Assembly (NCBI GenBank): GCA_023212725.1
Contig: JALBYF010000012.1
Coordinates: forward strand, 62,001 to 126,000
Direction: 5' to 3'
Source: Tranzscheliella williamsii
Lineage: Eukaryota; Basidiomycota; Ustilaginomycetes; Ustilaginales; Ustilaginaceae
Length of the DNA stretch: 64,000 nucleotides
Part shown: piece after piece, positions 17,493 through 25,637 of the stretch
How positions within the stretch are numbered: position 1 is the first letter of the stretch
Layout of the letters: the number at the start of each line of letters is the position of its first letter
Made by a program: the position numbers and the translations under genes
Notes under the pieces: model-generated
The model's input: the letters and a program-made list of their open reading frames with translations, nothing else
Databases searched by the model: none
Told to the model about the DNA's origin: nothing

Positions 17493-18942
17493 TCAGTCTC
17501 CGTCTTCGATGTCGTTGCCTCCGGAGGTTTGCTCTTCCCTCTCGAGCATCTGCGTCGCCAGATCGAGGCCCTCGAGCTCGCCTATTGTTGGCTGGCTGTT
17601 GTCGTCGGCGAGGTTCTCCTCTCGGTCCGGAGTGGCACTCAGTTCTCTGGCAAGGTCAGGCGCCGGTGTCCCGATCTCGCTGTTGGCAGGCGTAGCCCCT
17701 CGGAACAAGGGTGTGGGACCGCGTGGCAAGCTGGCGTTGCGGCTCGAACGCTCTGCCGGTTCGAGAGAGGTGAAGCGTGCCTGGACGGAACCCGCGCGAT
17801 TATTACCCAACACCCCAGACGACACGGGTGCGACGGACAGCTGGCGGACCTCGGCCTGCTTGTTCTCGCCAAAGAGCTCCGGATAGGCCGCCAGCGTCCG
17901 CTTCGACGGCTCGACTACCAAGACAAGCAACTTGCCGAATCTGCAAGACAGAAAGACAGAGACAACGGTCGGCGTTATCAGCCTGCGACGCATCGCAACC
18001 GTGATCATGGCAGGCGCACAGCACTTACATTCGAAAACCGGCGTACTTGACGTGCAATTTGGGCTTCATCTTCTCTTCGTCTTCTTCTGTGATGATGATC
18101 GGTGTTTCCCCATCCTCTCCGACCGAGCCCATGGTGGATGTAGCGGTGATCGGCTCGCCCTCCGCGTCAAAATCATCGTCTTGCTGCGGCGTGGCGTCTT
18201 CGTTTTGATCCGAGTCTCGTTCTTGCTTCACCGGCGTATCCATCCTAACCCGCTTTGAACGTCTTGGACCTGTTTGCGCCTCTATGTCCGGAACGTTACC
18301 GACCGAGCCCGTTGCGCTGCGGCGCCTAGACGGGAGAGATGAGCTGGAAGAGAGCTGGGGCGGCGGCATTCCATCGAACGGATCTTGAGCGTCACTGGCT
18401 GGACTGAGCAGAGGATCCTCGCTTTGGACTAGTTGAGCTGTCGACTGCGGTTCTGGTGACTGCTTGACAGTGATAGCCTCTGTTTGACTGGTCCCGTCTA
18501 CTCTGGATGCGCCTGACGCCGATGGTGCCGGCGTCCGGCGCGGGATAGGAGCGTGGAGGTTGCCATCTTCGTCCTCTACTTTGACTTCACCGAGGGTGGG
18601 GTCTTGCGGAAAGACCAGGCTCTTCTCCTTGAGCAGAACCGAATGGCGGTCGTCCATGCGGCGGAAGAAGTAGGCCACCTGAAAGTCACGGTCAGAGTAG
18701 ACGTCGACGCGCTCCTTCTTGCTTATGGCCGAGAGCTTTCCGCTGCTGTCTGCCTCCTTGCGCAGCTTCGGCATGATACGGGTGCGGAGGATCGACAGCG
18801 TCTGCGTCAATATCGACGGGTTCCGGTTCATCCACTGTACATGTCGATGGTCCAAGTAGAGGATCGTCTGCAGTACGACATACGGCGACGCTCGCAGGTA
18901 GTACACATTGCGCTGAGTGAACTTCTCCTGCCTGGCACTCAT
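17493..18942 (-). CDS. Uncharacterised, probably nuclear protein
   Basis: There are two exons, 18942-18029 and 17940-17493, giving 453 residues. The 88-nt intron (GTAAGT...TTGCAG) joins KYAGFR-I-FGKLLVLVVEPS. I do not recognise the family. The first 115 residues look folded (QRNVYYLRASPYVVLQTILY, then LDHRHVQWMNRNPSILTQTL). The middle is Ser/Pro-rich with a basic RRSKRVRMDTP patch that could be a nuclear signal and acidic runs around ITEEDEE. A short hydrophobic beta-like segment (LHVKYAGFR-IFGKLLVLVV) lies across the splice junction, and its conservation of frame supports the intron. A chromatin or transcription role is only a guess from composition. Confidence 0.7.
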
Positions 18943-19437
18943 GGTCGCCTGCGTGCCTATGCACCGCTGTCAGCCGCAGCCGGTAGAGTCGCTGCGCCCC
19001 AATACCGTGTTCGTTGGGAAGCGACCCTGTAGTATCACTTTACTAGCCAGCAGAGTGCGAGTGTGATGGTAAGTGGGCTTCGAATTACAGATCACAATCA
19101 CCAGTACTTTGCTGCGAGCCGTGATTTCTCCTTCTCCCCATCATCTCAGTCACCTCCACAAACGGAGAGGGTGGAAAGACCCTTTTTCGGCTATCCGTCC
19201 GACTGGCGACAAAGCCTATCTATCACAGATCAATTCGGCCTTGACTTGACACTGTAAGTTTTCGCATATCACAATCACATACATATTCCATTTTTCTCAC
19301 GCTGGGCTCGGACCAAGCCGATCCGAACTGAGCCTTTCTGCTGCATTCACATCGTGCTTACTGCTCACTATCAAGTACATTTTGTCTTCTCTCTCACCAC
19401 CACCTTCCAGCTTGGCATTGCACCTGCCGCTTGCACG
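18943..19437. promoter_or_regulatory. Divergent promoter with two ATCACAATCAC copies
   Basis: This 495-bp spacer separates the unknown minus-strand gene from the S9 peptidase gene. Exact copies of ATCACAATCAC start at 19091 and 19268, in the same orientation. No other gene is visible. Confidence 0.45.
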
Positions 19438-22341
19438 ATGGCCCAGTCTACGTCAAAGACGATCGCGCCATATGGGGCGTGGGAGTCGCCTATCACCACC
19501 GACCTGCTGGTCCAGAAGAACCTTTCTCTCGCCGAGGTGCTCGTGCCGCCGAGATCCGACTCTTCCACCGAGATTCTATGGATAGAGGGAAGGCCCAGCG
19601 AGAGCGGCAGAGCAGCGCTCATGTACTCCTCCTCGCTTTCCGCAGCAGACGCTTCCGATCTCAGCAACGGCAAGTACAATGTGCGCTCAGCCATACACGA
19701 GTACGGTGGAGGTGCGGCCGCGGCCCTGCCAGATGGTAGCGTGGTATTCAGCGACTACGATCCCAAGGCCTTCAACGTCGTACGCACATATCCAGGCGGA
19801 GAAGCGCAGGTCGTCACCCCGCAGAACAAGCTACATCGCTTCGGCGATTTCAGCGCCCATCCAAGCGATAGCAACCTCGTGCTCGCTATCCTCGAAGACC
19901 ATACCGACGACAAGCCAAGCACTGTAGTCAACTCGCTTGTCTTGCTGGACATGTCCACTTCTCCTGCAACAGTCCATACTCTCCTCAAGGGCGAGGTTGC
20001 TGACCGCCATTCCACCGACCCTGTCAGCCCCCAAGGCCGTGATTTCTATACCTTTGGCAGATTTTCGCCCAACGGCAAGTACATCAGCTGGATCTCTTGG
20101 AATCATCCGAGCATGCCTTGGTGGGGCACTGAGCTTTGGGTCGCTCGCATCGACATCTCCGACGCTTCGACGCCCAAGCTCGTCTCTCCGATCTCGATCA
20201 AGGTCCCAGACGGTACGTTCACGAATGACCAGGCCTTGCAAGCACCTGTCTGGGCGATCCCTTCGAACCCACATGATGATGCCTCCAGGCTCTTCTTCTC
20301 TTGCGATGCCACCGGATACATCAATTTGTATAGTGTCGTCGTCTCCTCTACATCCTCCGGCTTGCGTGTCACGGCACCCGAGTCAGTCCTGCCTGAACCA
20401 GTGCAGAACGATTTCTTGACCCCTTGCTTGTACTTGAACAACTCCAACTACGTACCCCTCAGCCAAGACATGCTGGTGGTCGCATTTATAGAGGGCGCCA
20501 AACAGCGTCTGGGACTCATCAACCTGCGCAAGCCCAGGCTTATCCCGCTGGCCTCGCCCTTCGTGTCTTGTGCTCAGTTGCGCCGCTTGACCTCAACCTC
20601 CTTTGTCTTTTTGGGCTCGCGAAGCGACGACGCAACGTCGCTGGTCAAGGTGGACCTGCGCGGTGTCGCCGCTGCCAATTACGTTTTGCAGCCGGGCAAC
20701 TTTGTCGTCATTAAGCACTCCTCCACCTTGGTCTCAGACGGGACGATTGACAAAGCCTGGATTAGCGAGCCTAAGGAGATCGAGTATCCTACCACCCTGC
20801 CCAACGATAGCGCCGCCACGGCGCACGCCATCCTATTTCCTCCCACCAATCCTCATTTCGCTGCTCCGGCTGGCACAGCTCCGCCTTGCATATTTACCGT
20901 GCATGGTGGACCGACAGGAAGCGCGAGCCCGACGTTCAACCTCCAGACCTTGTTCTGGACATCTCGCGGCTTTATGGTCTGCGCGGTTAACTACGGAGGC
21001 AGCACCGGCTACGGCCGTGACTACATGGATCGGCTGTCCGGCGAGTGGGGCGTGACCGATGTAACCGACTGCGTGGCAGCCGCCAAATTCCTCGGCTCCA
21101 AGGCCAGCCTAGATCCACGACCGTTCAGCAGCCTCAGCAAGGCTGAGCAGGACGCAGTGCGGAGCACCCTGGAGGCAGACGCAGCAGCCCATCTTGCGTT
21201 GGCCGAGGAAAGTTTACCCGGGGGCGGATGTCGCGTGACGATCCGAAACACCTCCCCGAGCTGGGCGTGGACCGACGTTGTGGCGGGCGCGGCCTCCCTG
21301 GGTTTGGTCTACCTCGGAGTTGCATATCTGCCCGACGTATTGGCGTACACCGCGAGGCTACTTCCGGGCGGGGCAGATTCTGCTTTGTCATCGCCAATGG
21401 GTCGTACGGCGGCGCAGTACACGGCCGCTGTGTTGGGCTTTGTCCCGTGGCTGTACAGCAAAGTTGCGCGGGTGGAGAGCGAGTCTGCGGCGGTCCTTCC
21501 TGGCCTTGGCATCCAGCTCAGCACACAGCGCGGCTTCCGCCTGGGGTCCCGCCGGATTACGACGGGACGGAAGGAGAGGCTGGTGCCCGAGGACAAGGTA
21601 CTAGACGTGTACGTCGCCGAGGGCTACAAGTACTTCAGCGTGGTGGACTATCTAGCGCTGGTGACGTCGGTGGGCGTGTCGGCGGGCTCGGAAGGAGGCC
21701 AAGAGAAAGCGGAGGCGAGAAAAGGCGCCAAGATCGAGCGGCTCTTCCCGAATCTGCTGCCGCGGCTGTTGGTGGTGGAGCGGGCGTACGGGATGCTGCG
21801 TCCGCACCTGGGGGCGGGGATGGGTGGTGGTACGGCGGGGCGGCGTCGGGCGAGGGCGCTGGCGGACGCACGCGCGATGCTGATCTCGGGCGGCTCGGCG
21901 GGCGGGTACACGGTGCTGGCGGCGCTGTGCTTCCACGCGCATGTCTTCGCGGGCGGCGTGTCGCGGTACGGCGTCTCGTCGCTGGCGCTGCTCGCGGCCG
22001 AGTCGCACAAGTTTGAGTCGCAGTACGCGTTCCGGCTGATTGGTGGGACGCCCGAAGCGGTGCCGGACATCTACCACGCGCGCTCGCCGATCTACTTTGC
22101 CGCCCAGATCCGCGCGCCCCTCCTGATCCTCCAGGGCGCCGACGACAAGATCGTTCCCCCCAGCCAGGCAGTCCAGCTGGTCGCCGAGCTCGAGAAAGGC
22201 GGCGCCCGCCCCGGCATCGACTACCGCTACAAGCTCTATCCCGGCGAGGGCCACGGCTTCCGCCGCAGCGAAAATATCAAGGACGCCATCGAGCTCGAGC
22301 TCGACTGGTACCGCACCCGCTGTCTGCGCCTCGTCCACTAG
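19438..22341 (+). CDS. S9-family serine peptidase with an inserted PIG-H/Gpi15-like module
   Basis: The protein has 967 residues from the ATG at 19438 (the upstream ATG at 19354 adds a hydrophobic, unconserved lead). Residues about 1-440 are the propeller-like N-domain of prolyl-oligopeptidase-type (S9C) enzymes (RSAIHEYGGGA, DFYTFGRFSPNGKYISWISW). The alpha/beta hydrolase starts near 470 (FTVHGGPTGSASPTFNLQT). Catalytic residues are Ser820 in SGGSAGGY, Asp903 in GADDKIVPP and His939 in GEGHGF. Between DCVAAAKFLGSKA (545-556) and ARAMLISGGS (811-) lie about 250 extra residues. They contain two hydrophobic segments (about 613-637 and 658-676) and a PIG-H domain (682-791: GLGIQLS, DKVLDVYVAEGY, FPNLLPRL..ERAYGMLRPHL). 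PIG-H/Gpi15 is a subunit of the GPI-GlcNAc transferase that starts GPI-anchor synthesis at the ER. No splice signals that would remove the insert were seen. Confidence 0.88.
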   Translation: MAQSTSKTIAPYGAWESPITTDLLVQKNLSLAEVLVPPRSDSSTEILWIEGRPSESGRAALMYSSSLSAADASDLSNGKYNVRSAIHEYGGGAAAALPDGSVVFSDYDPKAFNVVRTYPGGEAQVVTPQNKLHRFGDFSAHPSDSNLVLAILEDHTDDKPSTVVNSLVLLDMSTSPATVHTLLKGEVADRHSTDPVSPQGRDFYTFGRFSPNGKYISWISWNHPSMPWWGTELWVARIDISDASTPKLVSPISIKVPDGTFTNDQALQAPVWAIPSNPHDDASRLFFSCDATGYINLYSVVVSSTSSGLRVTAPESVLPEPVQNDFLTPCLYLNNSNYVPLSQDMLVVAFIEGAKQRLGLINLRKPRLIPLASPFVSCAQLRRLTSTSFVFLGSRSDDATSLVKVDLRGVAAANYVLQPGNFVVIKHSSTLVSDGTIDKAWISEPKEIEYPTTLPNDSAATAHAILFPPTNPHFAAPAGTAPPCIFTVHGGPTGSASPTFNLQTLFWTSRGFMVCAVNYGGSTGYGRDYMDRLSGEWGVTDVTDCVAAAKFLGSKASLDPRPFSSLSKAEQDAVRSTLEADAAAHLALAEESLPGGGCRVTIRNTSPSWAWTDVVAGAASLGLVYLGVAYLPDVLAYTARLLPGGADSALSSPMGRTAAQYTAAVLGFVPWLYSKVARVESESAAVLPGLGIQLSTQRGFRLGSRRITTGRKERLVPEDKVLDVYVAEGYKYFSVVDYLALVTSVGVSAGSEGGQEKAEARKGAKIERLFPNLLPRLLVVERAYGMLRPHLGAGMGGGTAGRRRARALADARAMLISGGSAGGYTVLAALCFHAHVFAGGVSRYGVSSLALLAAESHKFESQYAFRLIGGTPEAVPDIYHARSPIYFAAQIRAPLLILQGADDKIVPPSQAVQLVAELEKGGARPGIDYRYKLYPGEGHGFRRSENIKDAIELELDWYRTRCLRLVH

Positions 22342-22499: not shown

Positions 22500-25400
22500 T
22501 TATGTGCTGGCGAAAGGCGCGACGGAGACGCGGGAGGCCTTGACGCGGTTGGCGATGGGGGGCTGCTGTGGTGGGAGGGCGGTGAGGGGGGTGGCGACGG
22601 CGATGCTGGCGCGGAACTTGCGCGCGGAGCGGACGGGGCCGGGTCCGCCAGCCGAGGGGCGGGGGAAGGGTTTGTGGGCGGAGGGGAAGGTGGCGCGGTT
22701 GAGGGGCATCGATGCGGGCTCGGCGGCGAGGTTGAGCGCGCGGAAGGGGAGGCGCTCGGCGGTTGACGTGGGCTTACTGTCCTGGCTGGTGCTGGCCGGG
22801 GTTTCGGCGCGGGTTTCCTCGTCGAGAGATGCGAGGTGGGAGCCGGCCGACACGGTGCGACGGGCGGTGGATGGTGGGGGTGGCGCGCGCGCGCCTGGCA
22901 GGGAGGGTTTGGGGAGGGGTTTGGAGGCGACGGAGGGGGGCGGCCAGACGGGCGCGGGCTGCGCCGGGGTCGAGCGGCCGTCGGACAGATCCTCCCACTC
23001 GGTGCCAGAGCCTGGTGCGCCGGCGCCTGAGTCGGAGCTGCTCTCCTCGTCCGCGATCCCCGCCGCGGGAACGCGTGAAGCGGAGGTGGGAAGAGGGTGT
23101 GTCTCGCGGGTGCGCGCTCCGGCGTGCGCGCGCAGCCCCTTGTCGTCGATCGCGCCCTCGCCCGCCTCGTCCGCCCAGCGAAACTTCTTCTTCTCGTCCG
23201 CGGGCGCCTGCGACAGCGACGCGCGTGCCGAGCGCGCAGAGCTGTGCCGTCGCCCAGCCACCACACTCCCCCGCCGCGTCGCCACCGTCTTCCGCGCCGG
23301 ACTCGCCGCCATGTGCGAGCGTGCAGACGAGGAAGACGTCGGTGCCGCAAACCCCGGCGCCACGCGGCCCTGCACCGCCGACACGGGCATCGAGGCCGAA
23401 ACAGAGCCCAGCTGCATGCTGGCAGACCGGCCCACGGCGGGCACCGAGGCGCCCCGTGACCCAGAATGCACCGAGCGGCCCGTCTCGCCGCTGCGCGTGC
23501 CATGTCCACTCCCCCCTGCCGTGCCCACCGCCAGCGAAGTGCGCGCCTTGCGTAGCGCGGTTGCCGCGCCCGGCTTCGTGGTACGAGCGGCGCCCACGCT
23601 GGCAGTCTTGGCGGGTGCCGCTGACCTTGGCAAGCTGGCACCACTGATACTCTCCAAAACCCGGTCGTTTTCTCCCGAGATGCTCCTGAGCTGCGATGCG
23701 AGAAGCGAGAGCGTCGAGGAAAGGTCGTCTCCCGTGCGATTGGCCTGGCTCGCAGAGGCTGAGCGGTACTCGAGCTCCCCGGCGACCTCGCGCAGCGCAA
23801 TGGTGCTGCGCGCAGCTACGGTAATCAGCGTTGTCATGCCCACCGTACTTGACCGGAGCATCTCGGTCAAGCCATCCGTCTTGGCTCTGAGCTTGGCGGC
23901 CTCGACTTCAGACATCATGGCATTGCCCAGCGTCTTGATCGTTTCGGCCGCTTCGCCGTCGAACTTCTGGTTGTGCGACGCAGCGACGATAATGCCCCGC
24001 TGCATCTGTAGGCTGTTCAGCAGGCTCCGCACGCCGGACTGCGTTTCTTCGTTGCAGAGCAGCCTCTCTTCCCTTTCGACGAAGCCCTTGAGGATATCGC
24101 GCTCGCCTTCGAGGTCCGAAGGCAGGCTGTCGCCCCTCGAGCTGAAAACGCTAAGCTCCGCGTCGACCTGCGAGATCCGTTTGCGTAGCTCGGCCAACCT
24201 TGCTTCGGCAGCTGCCGTCTGCACCTCGAAGGCGACCTTGTCGGCAACCAGCTTGGTGACGTTGTCGGTGCTCTCGCGCATCCGCTTCTTGGCTTCTTCC
24301 ATCTCGCGGCCCATCTCGGCGCGCTTTCTCTTCTCCGCTGGCGTCTCCAGCGACTCGCACTCGCTCAGCCGTGCACGAAGCCGCTCGTTCTCCTCCTTGA
24401 GCTCGTGGATCGCTTGCACATACTGTGCAACGTGACGATCGACATTGATCATGTTGCGGCTCACTTTGGTCCGGATGTTTTTGGCCTGGTTCGCATACTT
24501 AAGCGCGTTGTGCGTCTCCTCGTAGTGCATGCTCGACGGACTGATGCAGACCACCATCACCGTCTTGCAATTGCCTCCGAGCGAGAACTTCAGAAGCCGG
24601 GTCAGCTTGGAATTGCGGTACGGAACGTGCTGTTTGGCGCCGCCTGACTGGCAGAGGGCGTTGATGCAGTTGCCGAGCGCCAGGAGCGACTTGTTGATGT
24701 TGGCGCCCTCCTTCATGCGCGCACCATTGTTGCTGGTTGCAGAGGCTCGCTCCGAGCCGGCCAGGTCGATAATGTTGAGTGAGGCCGAGGTGGTCTGCTC
24801 GGTCATGCTGGCTGTCCTCGGCTTCTGGGTAACGTTGATCTGAAGGACAGCGTGCGATCGCGAGCTGACGGCGTTGGCCTCTGTCGGGCTCATAGTGCGG
24901 CGCAGGTTTCCTTCCTGGATGTATTCGATCACGCTCTCTGGGTTCTCTGGGATGAGCTCAGTGATGCCCACGACCGAGATCTTGTTGTTGGCGTCTTCCC
25001 GCATCGCCAGCCCAGCGCCGGGCGGCGTGGGCTCTGCACTGAGAAGATCACGGATGGTCTCGTTGTAGATTTCGAGATAGGACAAGCGAACATGGACCTC
25101 AGAGTCCAGCTTGGCATCCTGGATGCGGTTGTATAGCTCTTTCATGGTGAGGAAAATGAGGCCTGGGTCGTCTGGCGTGCCGCTGATTGTGTGTGTTTTA
25201 CCGCATCCAGTGGCACCGTAGGCGAAGACACTGGCATTGTAGCCATTCAGTATGCCATCGAGCAACGGCTGACAAGTTTCCTGAAAGACGTCGTGCTGAG
25301 AGGCAGTTGCATCGAAGACGCGGTCAAACGCATAGCGGACATCCTTGCTGCGCTTGGATCCGCGGGCGTGCGGATTGCTAGTGTAGAGCCTCGTCAAAGG

Positions 25401-25637
25401 GTTATTGTCCGGCGGATCGAAGACCAGCACCTTTTGGTCCATGGGGCGGACGATCGGGCGAATGAAACGGGTGCGAAGAGAGCCGTTGCTCGGCCCTGCG
25501 ATGGGCTTGTTGGGGGAGCAGCCGAGCCCGCCATCTCCCAAAAATGGGGTCAGATCTTCATTGGGCGCTAGCAGGGCAGCTTCCTTTTCGCTAAAGGGGC
25601 GCACCCTGACGCAAACGTTAATTGAAGATTCCGACAT
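22500..25637 (-). CDS. Kinesin-8 (Kip3-type) motor protein
   Basis: The protein has 1045 residues in a single exon. The motor domain fills residues 1-430: INVCVRVRPF at 6-15, P-loop GATGCGKT at 141-148, switch I VSSRSHAV, and switch II IIDLAGSER. The block QHVPYRNSKLTRLLKFSLGG and the neck region RNMINVDRHVAQYVQAIHEL are typical of kinesin-8. An insert at about 25-95 corresponds to the enlarged loop L2 of this class. A coiled coil follows (about 430-560), then a long Ser/Ala/Arg-rich tail. Known kinesin-8 motors move to plus ends and shorten microtubules, controlling spindle and cytoplasmic microtubule length. The tail shows the strongest base-composition skew of the window (C-rich sense at the very end, G-rich just before). 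Confidence 0.93.
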   Translation of the reverse strand: MSESSINVCVRVRPFSEKEAALLAPNEDLTPFLGDGGLGCSPNKPIAGPSNGSLRTRFIRPIVRPMDQKVLVFDPPDNNPLTRLYTSNPHARGSKRSKDVRYAFDRVFDATASQHDVFQETCQPLLDGILNGYNASVFAYGATGCGKTHTISGTPDDPGLIFLTMKELYNRIQDAKLDSEVHVRLSYLEIYNETIRDLLSAEPTPPGAGLAMREDANNKISVVGITELIPENPESVIEYIQEGNLRRTMSPTEANAVSSRSHAVLQINVTQKPRTASMTEQTTSASLNIIDLAGSERASATSNNGARMKEGANINKSLLALGNCINALCQSGGAKQHVPYRNSKLTRLLKFSLGGNCKTVMVVCISPSSMHYEETHNALKYANQAKNIRTKVSRNMINVDRHVAQYVQAIHELKEENERLRARLSECESLETPAEKRKRAEMGREMEEAKKRMRESTDNVTKLVADKVAFEVQTAAAEARLAELRKRISQVDAELSVFSSRGDSLPSDLEGERDILKGFVEREERLLCNEETQSGVRSLLNSLQMQRGIIVAASHNQKFDGEAAETIKTLGNAMMSEVEAAKLRAKTDGLTEMLRSSTVGMTTLITVAARSTIALREVAGELEYRSASASQANRTGDDLSSTLSLLASQLRSISGENDRVLESISGASLPRSAAPAKTASVGAARTTKPGAATALRKARTSLAVGTAGGSGHGTRSGETGRSVHSGSRGASVPAVGRSASMQLGSVSASMPVSAVQGRVAPGFAAPTSSSSARSHMAASPARKTVATRRGSVVAGRRHSSARSARASLSQAPADEKKKFRWADEAGEGAIDDKGLRAHAGARTRETHPLPTSASRVPAAGIADEESSSDSGAGAPGSGTEWEDLSDGRSTPAQPAPVWPPPSVASKPLPKPSLPGARAPPPPSTARRTVSAGSHLASLDEETRAETPASTSQDSKPTSTAERLPFRALNLAAEPASMPLNRATFPSAHKPFPRPSAGGPGPVRSARKFRASIAVATPLTALPPQQPPIANRVKASRVSVAPFAST

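Follow-up and report, generated by a model that had tools for sequence, protein, structure and literature searches.

A PIG-H/Gpi15-like module nested in the catalytic domain of an S9 peptidase, the predicted sole Gpi15 of Tranzscheliella williamsii

Organization of the fusion gene

The stretch of DNA analysed here, referred to as the window, comprises 64,000 nucleotides of contig JALBYF010000012.1 of the smut fungus Tranzscheliella williamsii. It contains an open frame in which two parts of an S9 peptidase, whose catalytic triad is intact, are separated by an insert that matches PIG-H, the family of the glycosylphosphatidylinositol (GPI) synthesis subunit Gpi15. The insert lies ahead of the nucleophile, and no second copy of either component was found in the genome. 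The frame has 967 codons on the forward strand, from an ATG at 19438 to a stop ending at 22341, with no internal stops (Table 1). An earlier reading made from the letters alone (the sequence-only reading) had described a single frame with a propeller, half of a hydrolase fold, about 250 extra residues and then the GGSAGG elbow followed by Asp and His; the positions given and the arrangement of the parts were both confirmed.

Relatives were collected with six peptide patterns of the query, searched against one genome per species in 84,980 bacterial and archaeal species, which yielded 63 loci; the set holds only loci sharing one of these six patterns with the query. In 62 of the 63 loci the alignment starts at residues 1-13 of the fusion, the exception being a partial match (L084) starting at residue 200. 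Because the matches begin so near its first residue, the ATG at 19438 is well placed and little room is left for a signal peptide. Upstream of it the same frame is free of stops as far as 19258 and holds a GTG (19354) but no further ATG. GTAAGT donor-like sites at 19069 and 19254, also upstream of the ATG, could belong to introns of the 5' untranslated region.

Table 1. Parts of the fusion gene, with positions counted from the first letter of the window
Feature	Position	Strand	Evidence
Fusion gene, S9 peptidase with nested PIG-H module, 967 residues	19438..22341	+	Open frame; Pfam order S9/PIG-H/S9
S9 part 1 (residues 1-560), beta-propeller joined to the first alpha/beta-hydrolase half, ending with the DCVAAAKFL helix	19438..21117	+	phmmer, model, conservation
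Insert of about 251 residues (561-811), made up of linkers and a PIG-H/Gpi15-like module; edges +/- about 4 residues	21118..21870	+	Spacing, alignment
Hydrophobic segment, residues 614-632, likely first PIG-H membrane helix	21277..21333	+	Kyte-Doolittle, low-confidence model helix
Possible second membrane helix, residues 653-683, moderately hydrophobic	21394..21486	+	Low-confidence model helix
PIG-H domain PF10181, residues 685-744	21490..21669	+	Pfam E 2.8e-12
S9 part 2, residues 812-967: nucleophile strand, GGSAGG elbow, Asp and His loops	21871..22338	+	phmmer, conservation
Nucleophile Ser820 codon	21895..21897	+	Ser in 61/61 relatives
Catalytic Asp903 codon	22144..22146	+	Asp in 59/61 relatives, gap in the other 2
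Catalytic His939 codon	22252..22254	+	His in 58/61 relatives, gap in the other 3

The S9 peptidase host

The Pfam family Peptidase_S9 (PF00326) matched the fusion with 137.6 bits against a cut-off of 22.6, and the match was split in two stretches. Two hydrolase families that overlap with it, BD-FAE and DLH, also scored above cut-off; such overlap is common within the alpha/beta-hydrolase fold. A phmmer search against the PDB matched 18 distinct sequences, and the boundaries were taken from two of these alignments, in which 7c72 covers residues 4-560 and 808-959 of the fusion and 3azo covers residues 9-559 and 808-959. Five NCBIfam models were matched at E <= 0.01, none of them near its curated cut-off (the best, Dpp5, had 33 bits vs 900), so that the S9 part was not assigned to a named peptidase subfamily.

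The triad of the fusion is common to 61 bacterial relatives, gaps aside. In an alignment of 54 relatives, 61 columns are at least 98% conserved, and the fusion retains 59 of them, 36/38 before the insert and 23/23 after it. At 90% conservation, 56 of 64 columns (88%) are kept before the insert and 39 of 42 (93%) after it. If the insert were dead and cut the gene in two, the downstream half should be the first to go; this half is, if anything, the better kept. Both sides look alive.

Extent of the insert and its PIG-H domain

Measured from the NYGGS motif to the elbow GGSAGG, the spacing was 49 residues in all 61 relatives that could be counted (two of the 63 loci, L081 and L083, were excluded, their matches stopping near query residue 236) and 300 in the fusion, which gives a net insert of 251. 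This excess is far beyond chance, since the spacing is identical in 61/61 relatives: none of them has extra residues between the helix and the nucleophile elbow, in contrast to the fusion with its 251 and a PIG-H domain among them. Likewise, none of the 54 aligned relatives places any residue opposite fusion residues 562-806. The insert lies between the nucleophile strand and the helix ahead of it; the edges are uncertain by about 4 residues because residues 533-536 of 7c72 are matched from both sides.

In the whole fusion, PF10181 was matched at residues 685-744 (46.7 bits vs a cut-off of 25, profile positions 3-55 of 67), and the insert alone (21103-21876) scored 49 bits against the same cut-off, which bears out the earlier assignment of the extra part to PIG-H/Gpi15. 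In PIG-H/Gpi15 proteins two membrane helices precede the domain. The most hydrophobic 19-residue Kyte-Doolittle window of the entire fusion protein (residues 614-632, mean 1.74) lies ahead of the core domain, so that here, as in PIG-H/Gpi15, a domain scoring above the curated cut-off follows a hydrophobic helix. The sequence-only reading had gone further and proposed that a whole GPI15 gene was inserted. An in-frame PIG-H module is indeed there; "complete" was an overstatement, because the module has no start or stop of its own, unlike separate PIG-H subunits elsewhere, and the Pfam match covers the core only. The PIG-H of T. brucei, for instance, is a small separate subunit of 28.8 kDa, as calculated (PMC7971885), whereas that of the fusion is nested in a peptidase. 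The sequence shows an in-frame PIG-H module within the S9 catalytic domain, and this interpretation is supported by these matches and by the genome searches and splice-site analysis described below. A PDB sequence search with the insert gave no credible relative (best E 0.095, antibody chains), and in a search for relatives of the insert among viral contigs 15 pattern matches were obtained, none of which was confirmed.

At the edges of the insert the best 12-base match had 8/12 identical bases (21112 and 21865). As good a match was reached by 259 of 300 pairs drawn at random within this gene, and a target-site duplication was rejected on this ground. RNA structure at the two edges gave no signal (z -0.77 and -0.40). 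At third codon positions, C-richness gives way to G-richness over about 21350-22080, across the second part of the insert into the start of the downstream S9 part, after which these positions become strongly C-rich. A signature of recent transfer was also rejected, as third-position composition drifts gradually without a sharp edge and the GC-rich tract runs on downstream.

Predicted structure

In the AlphaFold2 model the two S9 halves are predicted to close into one fold resembling puromycin hydrolase, with the insert looped out. Most of S9 part 1 has a predicted local distance difference test score (pLDDT) above 90, and residues 540-554 form a helix. The model could be aligned structurally to solved S9 enzymes over both halves, from residue 7 to 967, with an identity of 32-34%. 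A propeller joined to an alpha/beta-hydrolase fold, by which the S9 family is recognized, is present in the predicted model in common with puromycin hydrolase/S9 aminopeptidase (7c72 of Mycobacterium tuberculosis and 3azo). Within the insert, helices were placed at residues 612-641 and 653-683 with low confidence. Structure prediction, which had been suggested as a check together with the sequence-only reading, accordingly came out well for the S9 halves and poorly for the insert.

Copies and pathway genes in the genome

The genome searched comprises 18.18 Mb in 135 contigs, and the search takes no account of introns. Another GPI15 and an uninterrupted copy of the fusion's S9 gene had also been named as things to look for, and neither was found. 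The PIG-H profile had one match in the genome, inside the fusion (51.6 bits), and still one at E <= 10. With the insert as query, only the insert itself and a 15-bit match on contig C59 (E 0.14) were recovered; the latter was taken as chance and rejected as a second GPI15. No second copy of the N-terminal or C-terminal S9 part was detected in the whole genome at E <= 0.1. Peptidase_S9 occurs at 13 places, two of which are the fusion. Among the other 11 there are two uninterrupted matches of almost full length, both on contig C74, and according to the searches with both S9 parts none of the 11 is a copy of the fusion's S9 gene. It is unlikely that a second PIG-H copy was missed.

The search for partners in the GPI N-acetylglucosaminyltransferase (GPI-GnT) was made with PIGA, GPI2, Gpi1 and PIG-P, and each of the four was found at one place. 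The pathway is therefore present, and the fusion is the only PIG-H detected in it. In a search for a solved GPI-GnT, a 221-residue piece of the PIG-A encoded in this genome had no matching PDB chain at E <= 0.001.

Interpretation of the fusion

Based on these results, the 967-residue S9 peptidase with its nested PIG-H module is quite probably the sole Gpi15 of the fungus, as predicted, and its S9 halves likely form an active cytosolic enzyme at the membrane of the endoplasmic reticulum (ER). The dual function, cytosolic topology and ER location of the fusion are inferred from what is established for GPI synthesis. According to the sequence-only reading, both ends of PIG-H are cytosolic. The insert of the fusion would dip into the ER membrane and dock on PIG-A/Gpi3 and the other GPI-GnT subunits, its two ends would lie on the cytosolic side, and the peptidase halves would fold there around them. 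The loop bearing the insert is, as we take it from the alpha/beta-hydrolase fold, on the side opposite the catalytic residues and the propeller; its distance from both would explain how the two modules tolerate this arrangement. The insert is read as an ER-membrane Gpi15 with cytosolic ends because the synthesis of N-acetylglucosaminyl-phosphatidylinositol (GlcNAc-PI) is a cytosolic-side ER chemistry that needs Gpi15. PMC7125958 describes how GPI-GnT moves GlcNAc onto phosphatidylinositol at the cytoplasmic face of the ER, with PIGH essential for activity, and in yeast, as stated in PMC6559964, deletion of every GPI-GnT subunit gene is lethal except for GPI1 and ERI1. More tentatively, a live cytosolic peptidase could sit within Gpi15, with the membrane module threaded in before its nucleophile, and the state of the peptidase might then be mechanically coupled to GlcNAc-PI synthesis.

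Several observations count on the other side. The insert mostly has pLDDT values below 50 (residues 560-566, 592-646, 661-799 and 806-809), which leaves uncertain how it folds and how it fits onto the S9 part, and a single-sequence model of the insert alone had a mean pLDDT of 40.3, too low for a fold search. Of the two-helix hairpin claimed in the sequence-only reading, the first helix is strongly hydrophobic; the second, at about residues 653-683, is moderately hydrophobic and falls outside the 30 most hydrophobic windows. The 88% and 93% retention of conserved columns given above is lower than the leave-one-out means of the relatives (96% in both parts), although above their minima (76% and 82%), and this may be an effect of distance only. 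The assembly is a draft of 135 contigs, in which a second GPI15 could hide in a gap or in short intron-split pieces. Finally, PIG-H is listed as absent in C. elegans and Entamoeba in PMC6559964, and since some eukaryotes do without it, a sole copy by itself is no proof of need.

Alternative explanations

The main rival explanation concerns the S9 part and is compatible with the Gpi15 role. The fusion would serve as GPI15, with the S9 part reduced to a catalytically idle carrier or scaffold, whose peptidase activity has ceased to matter and which contributes a promoter, a start codon and a folded body in the cytosol. The halves of the catalytic domain are 251 residues apart, the insert model is of too low confidence for effects on the active site to be judged, and peptidase activity is a prediction from sequence. 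However, Ser820, Asp903 and His939 are intact, nearly all of the most conserved columns (59/61) are retained and the model fits solved S9 enzymes across both halves, so that idleness of the S9 part is considered improbable.

A second explanation, which we regard as decidedly unlikely, is that the insert is spliced out, or that GPI15 is nested in an intron of the S9 gene, with two ordinary proteins as the result. Three GT-AG pairs do keep the frame and leave a spacing of 44-60 residues, namely 21123-21854 (56 residues), 21052-21780 (57) and 21061-21780 (60). Their donors, however, have only 2, 3 and 4 of the 6 bases of GTAAGT, respectively; no GT site in 21000-21330 has more than 4/6. For all 10 AG sites in 21700-21895, the 45 bases upstream lack a CTRAY branch site. 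GC donors with 5/6 bases are present at 21041 and 21137, but joining either of them to the acceptor at 21780 or 21854 would shift the frame. These sites were scored against a general rather than a genome-trained consensus. No product would have the spacing of 49 seen throughout the relatives. Removal of the insert as an intron was rejected because of the weak splice scores, the frame and the spacing, and no splice-site pair that would remove it looks real as judged from the sequence, in agreement with the earlier remark that good intron borders are not visible. As for a nested gene, the insert frame has no stops (the five other frames have 1 to 6), and its first in-frame ATG (21397) comes after the strongest hydrophobic segment; a gene of its own would need both a stop and an ATG ahead of the hydrophobic helix.

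It is less probable still that the fusion is translated whole and then cut, or that translation begins internally, with PIG-H acting free of the peptidase in either case. The low pLDDT stretches near both ends of the insert could possibly be flexible linkers. On the other hand, excision of the insert would strand the nucleophile half unless the pieces stay associated, nothing in the sequence calls for cutting, and a start at the ATG 21397 would drop the strongest hydrophobic helix. An assembly error, in which an ordinary S9 gene was wrongly joined with a segment of GPI15, is conceivable in a draft of this kind and is given almost no weight, since it would require two independent in-frame junctions in one fold-compatible loop without a stop, second copies of either gene were not found elsewhere in the assembly, and third-position composition shifts gradually rather than abruptly at both edges.

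Origin and comparison with other systems

A nested PIG-H module acting as Gpi15 would most likely have arisen when a segment of GPI15 coding sequence, lacking start and stop, entered the S9 gene in frame, after which the free-standing GPI15 would have been lost. In domain-insertion proteins the inserted domain sits in a surface loop of the host domain, and the same holds for the fusion. It differs from general domain insertions in that the guest is a likely essential part of a membrane complex and the host a likely soluble hydrolase. In the open-access literature searched, no published work pairing "PIG-H" with "peptidase S9" was found, nor any on a prolyl oligopeptidase with a domain insertion, and none of the gene-fusion literature on Ustilaginomycotina was on a PIG-H/S9 fusion by title. 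The literature matched for PF10181 concerned Brugia, and that for GPI15 in Ustilago concerned histone acetylation. Such architectures may, however, already be present unnoticed in domain databases.

The specific functions of PIGH and three other GPI-GnT subunits "are not clear" according to PMC7125958. If the fusion works, it would follow that the two PIG-H ends can be near each other on the cytosolic face, a direct constraint on models of the complex. It would also be unusual in placing a likely essential membrane subunit within the catalytic domain of an enzyme that is likely soluble, neither of the two having been found as a gene of its own, and an S9 peptidase would be tied to the ER surface where GPI synthesis begins.

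Neighbouring features in the window

A 305-residue frame at 18025-18942 on the reverse strand is divergent from the fusion and had no Pfam match at E <= 0.001. On the other side, a 1045-residue frame at 22500-25637 on the reverse strand carries a kinesin motor (PF00225, E 4.1e-109) and lies tail to tail with the fusion at a distance of about 160 bases; GC content remains high from the fusion into this kinesin gene. A full-length 5S rRNA at 796-914 on the forward strand (110.3 bits) is the sole Rfam match of the window at gathering score.
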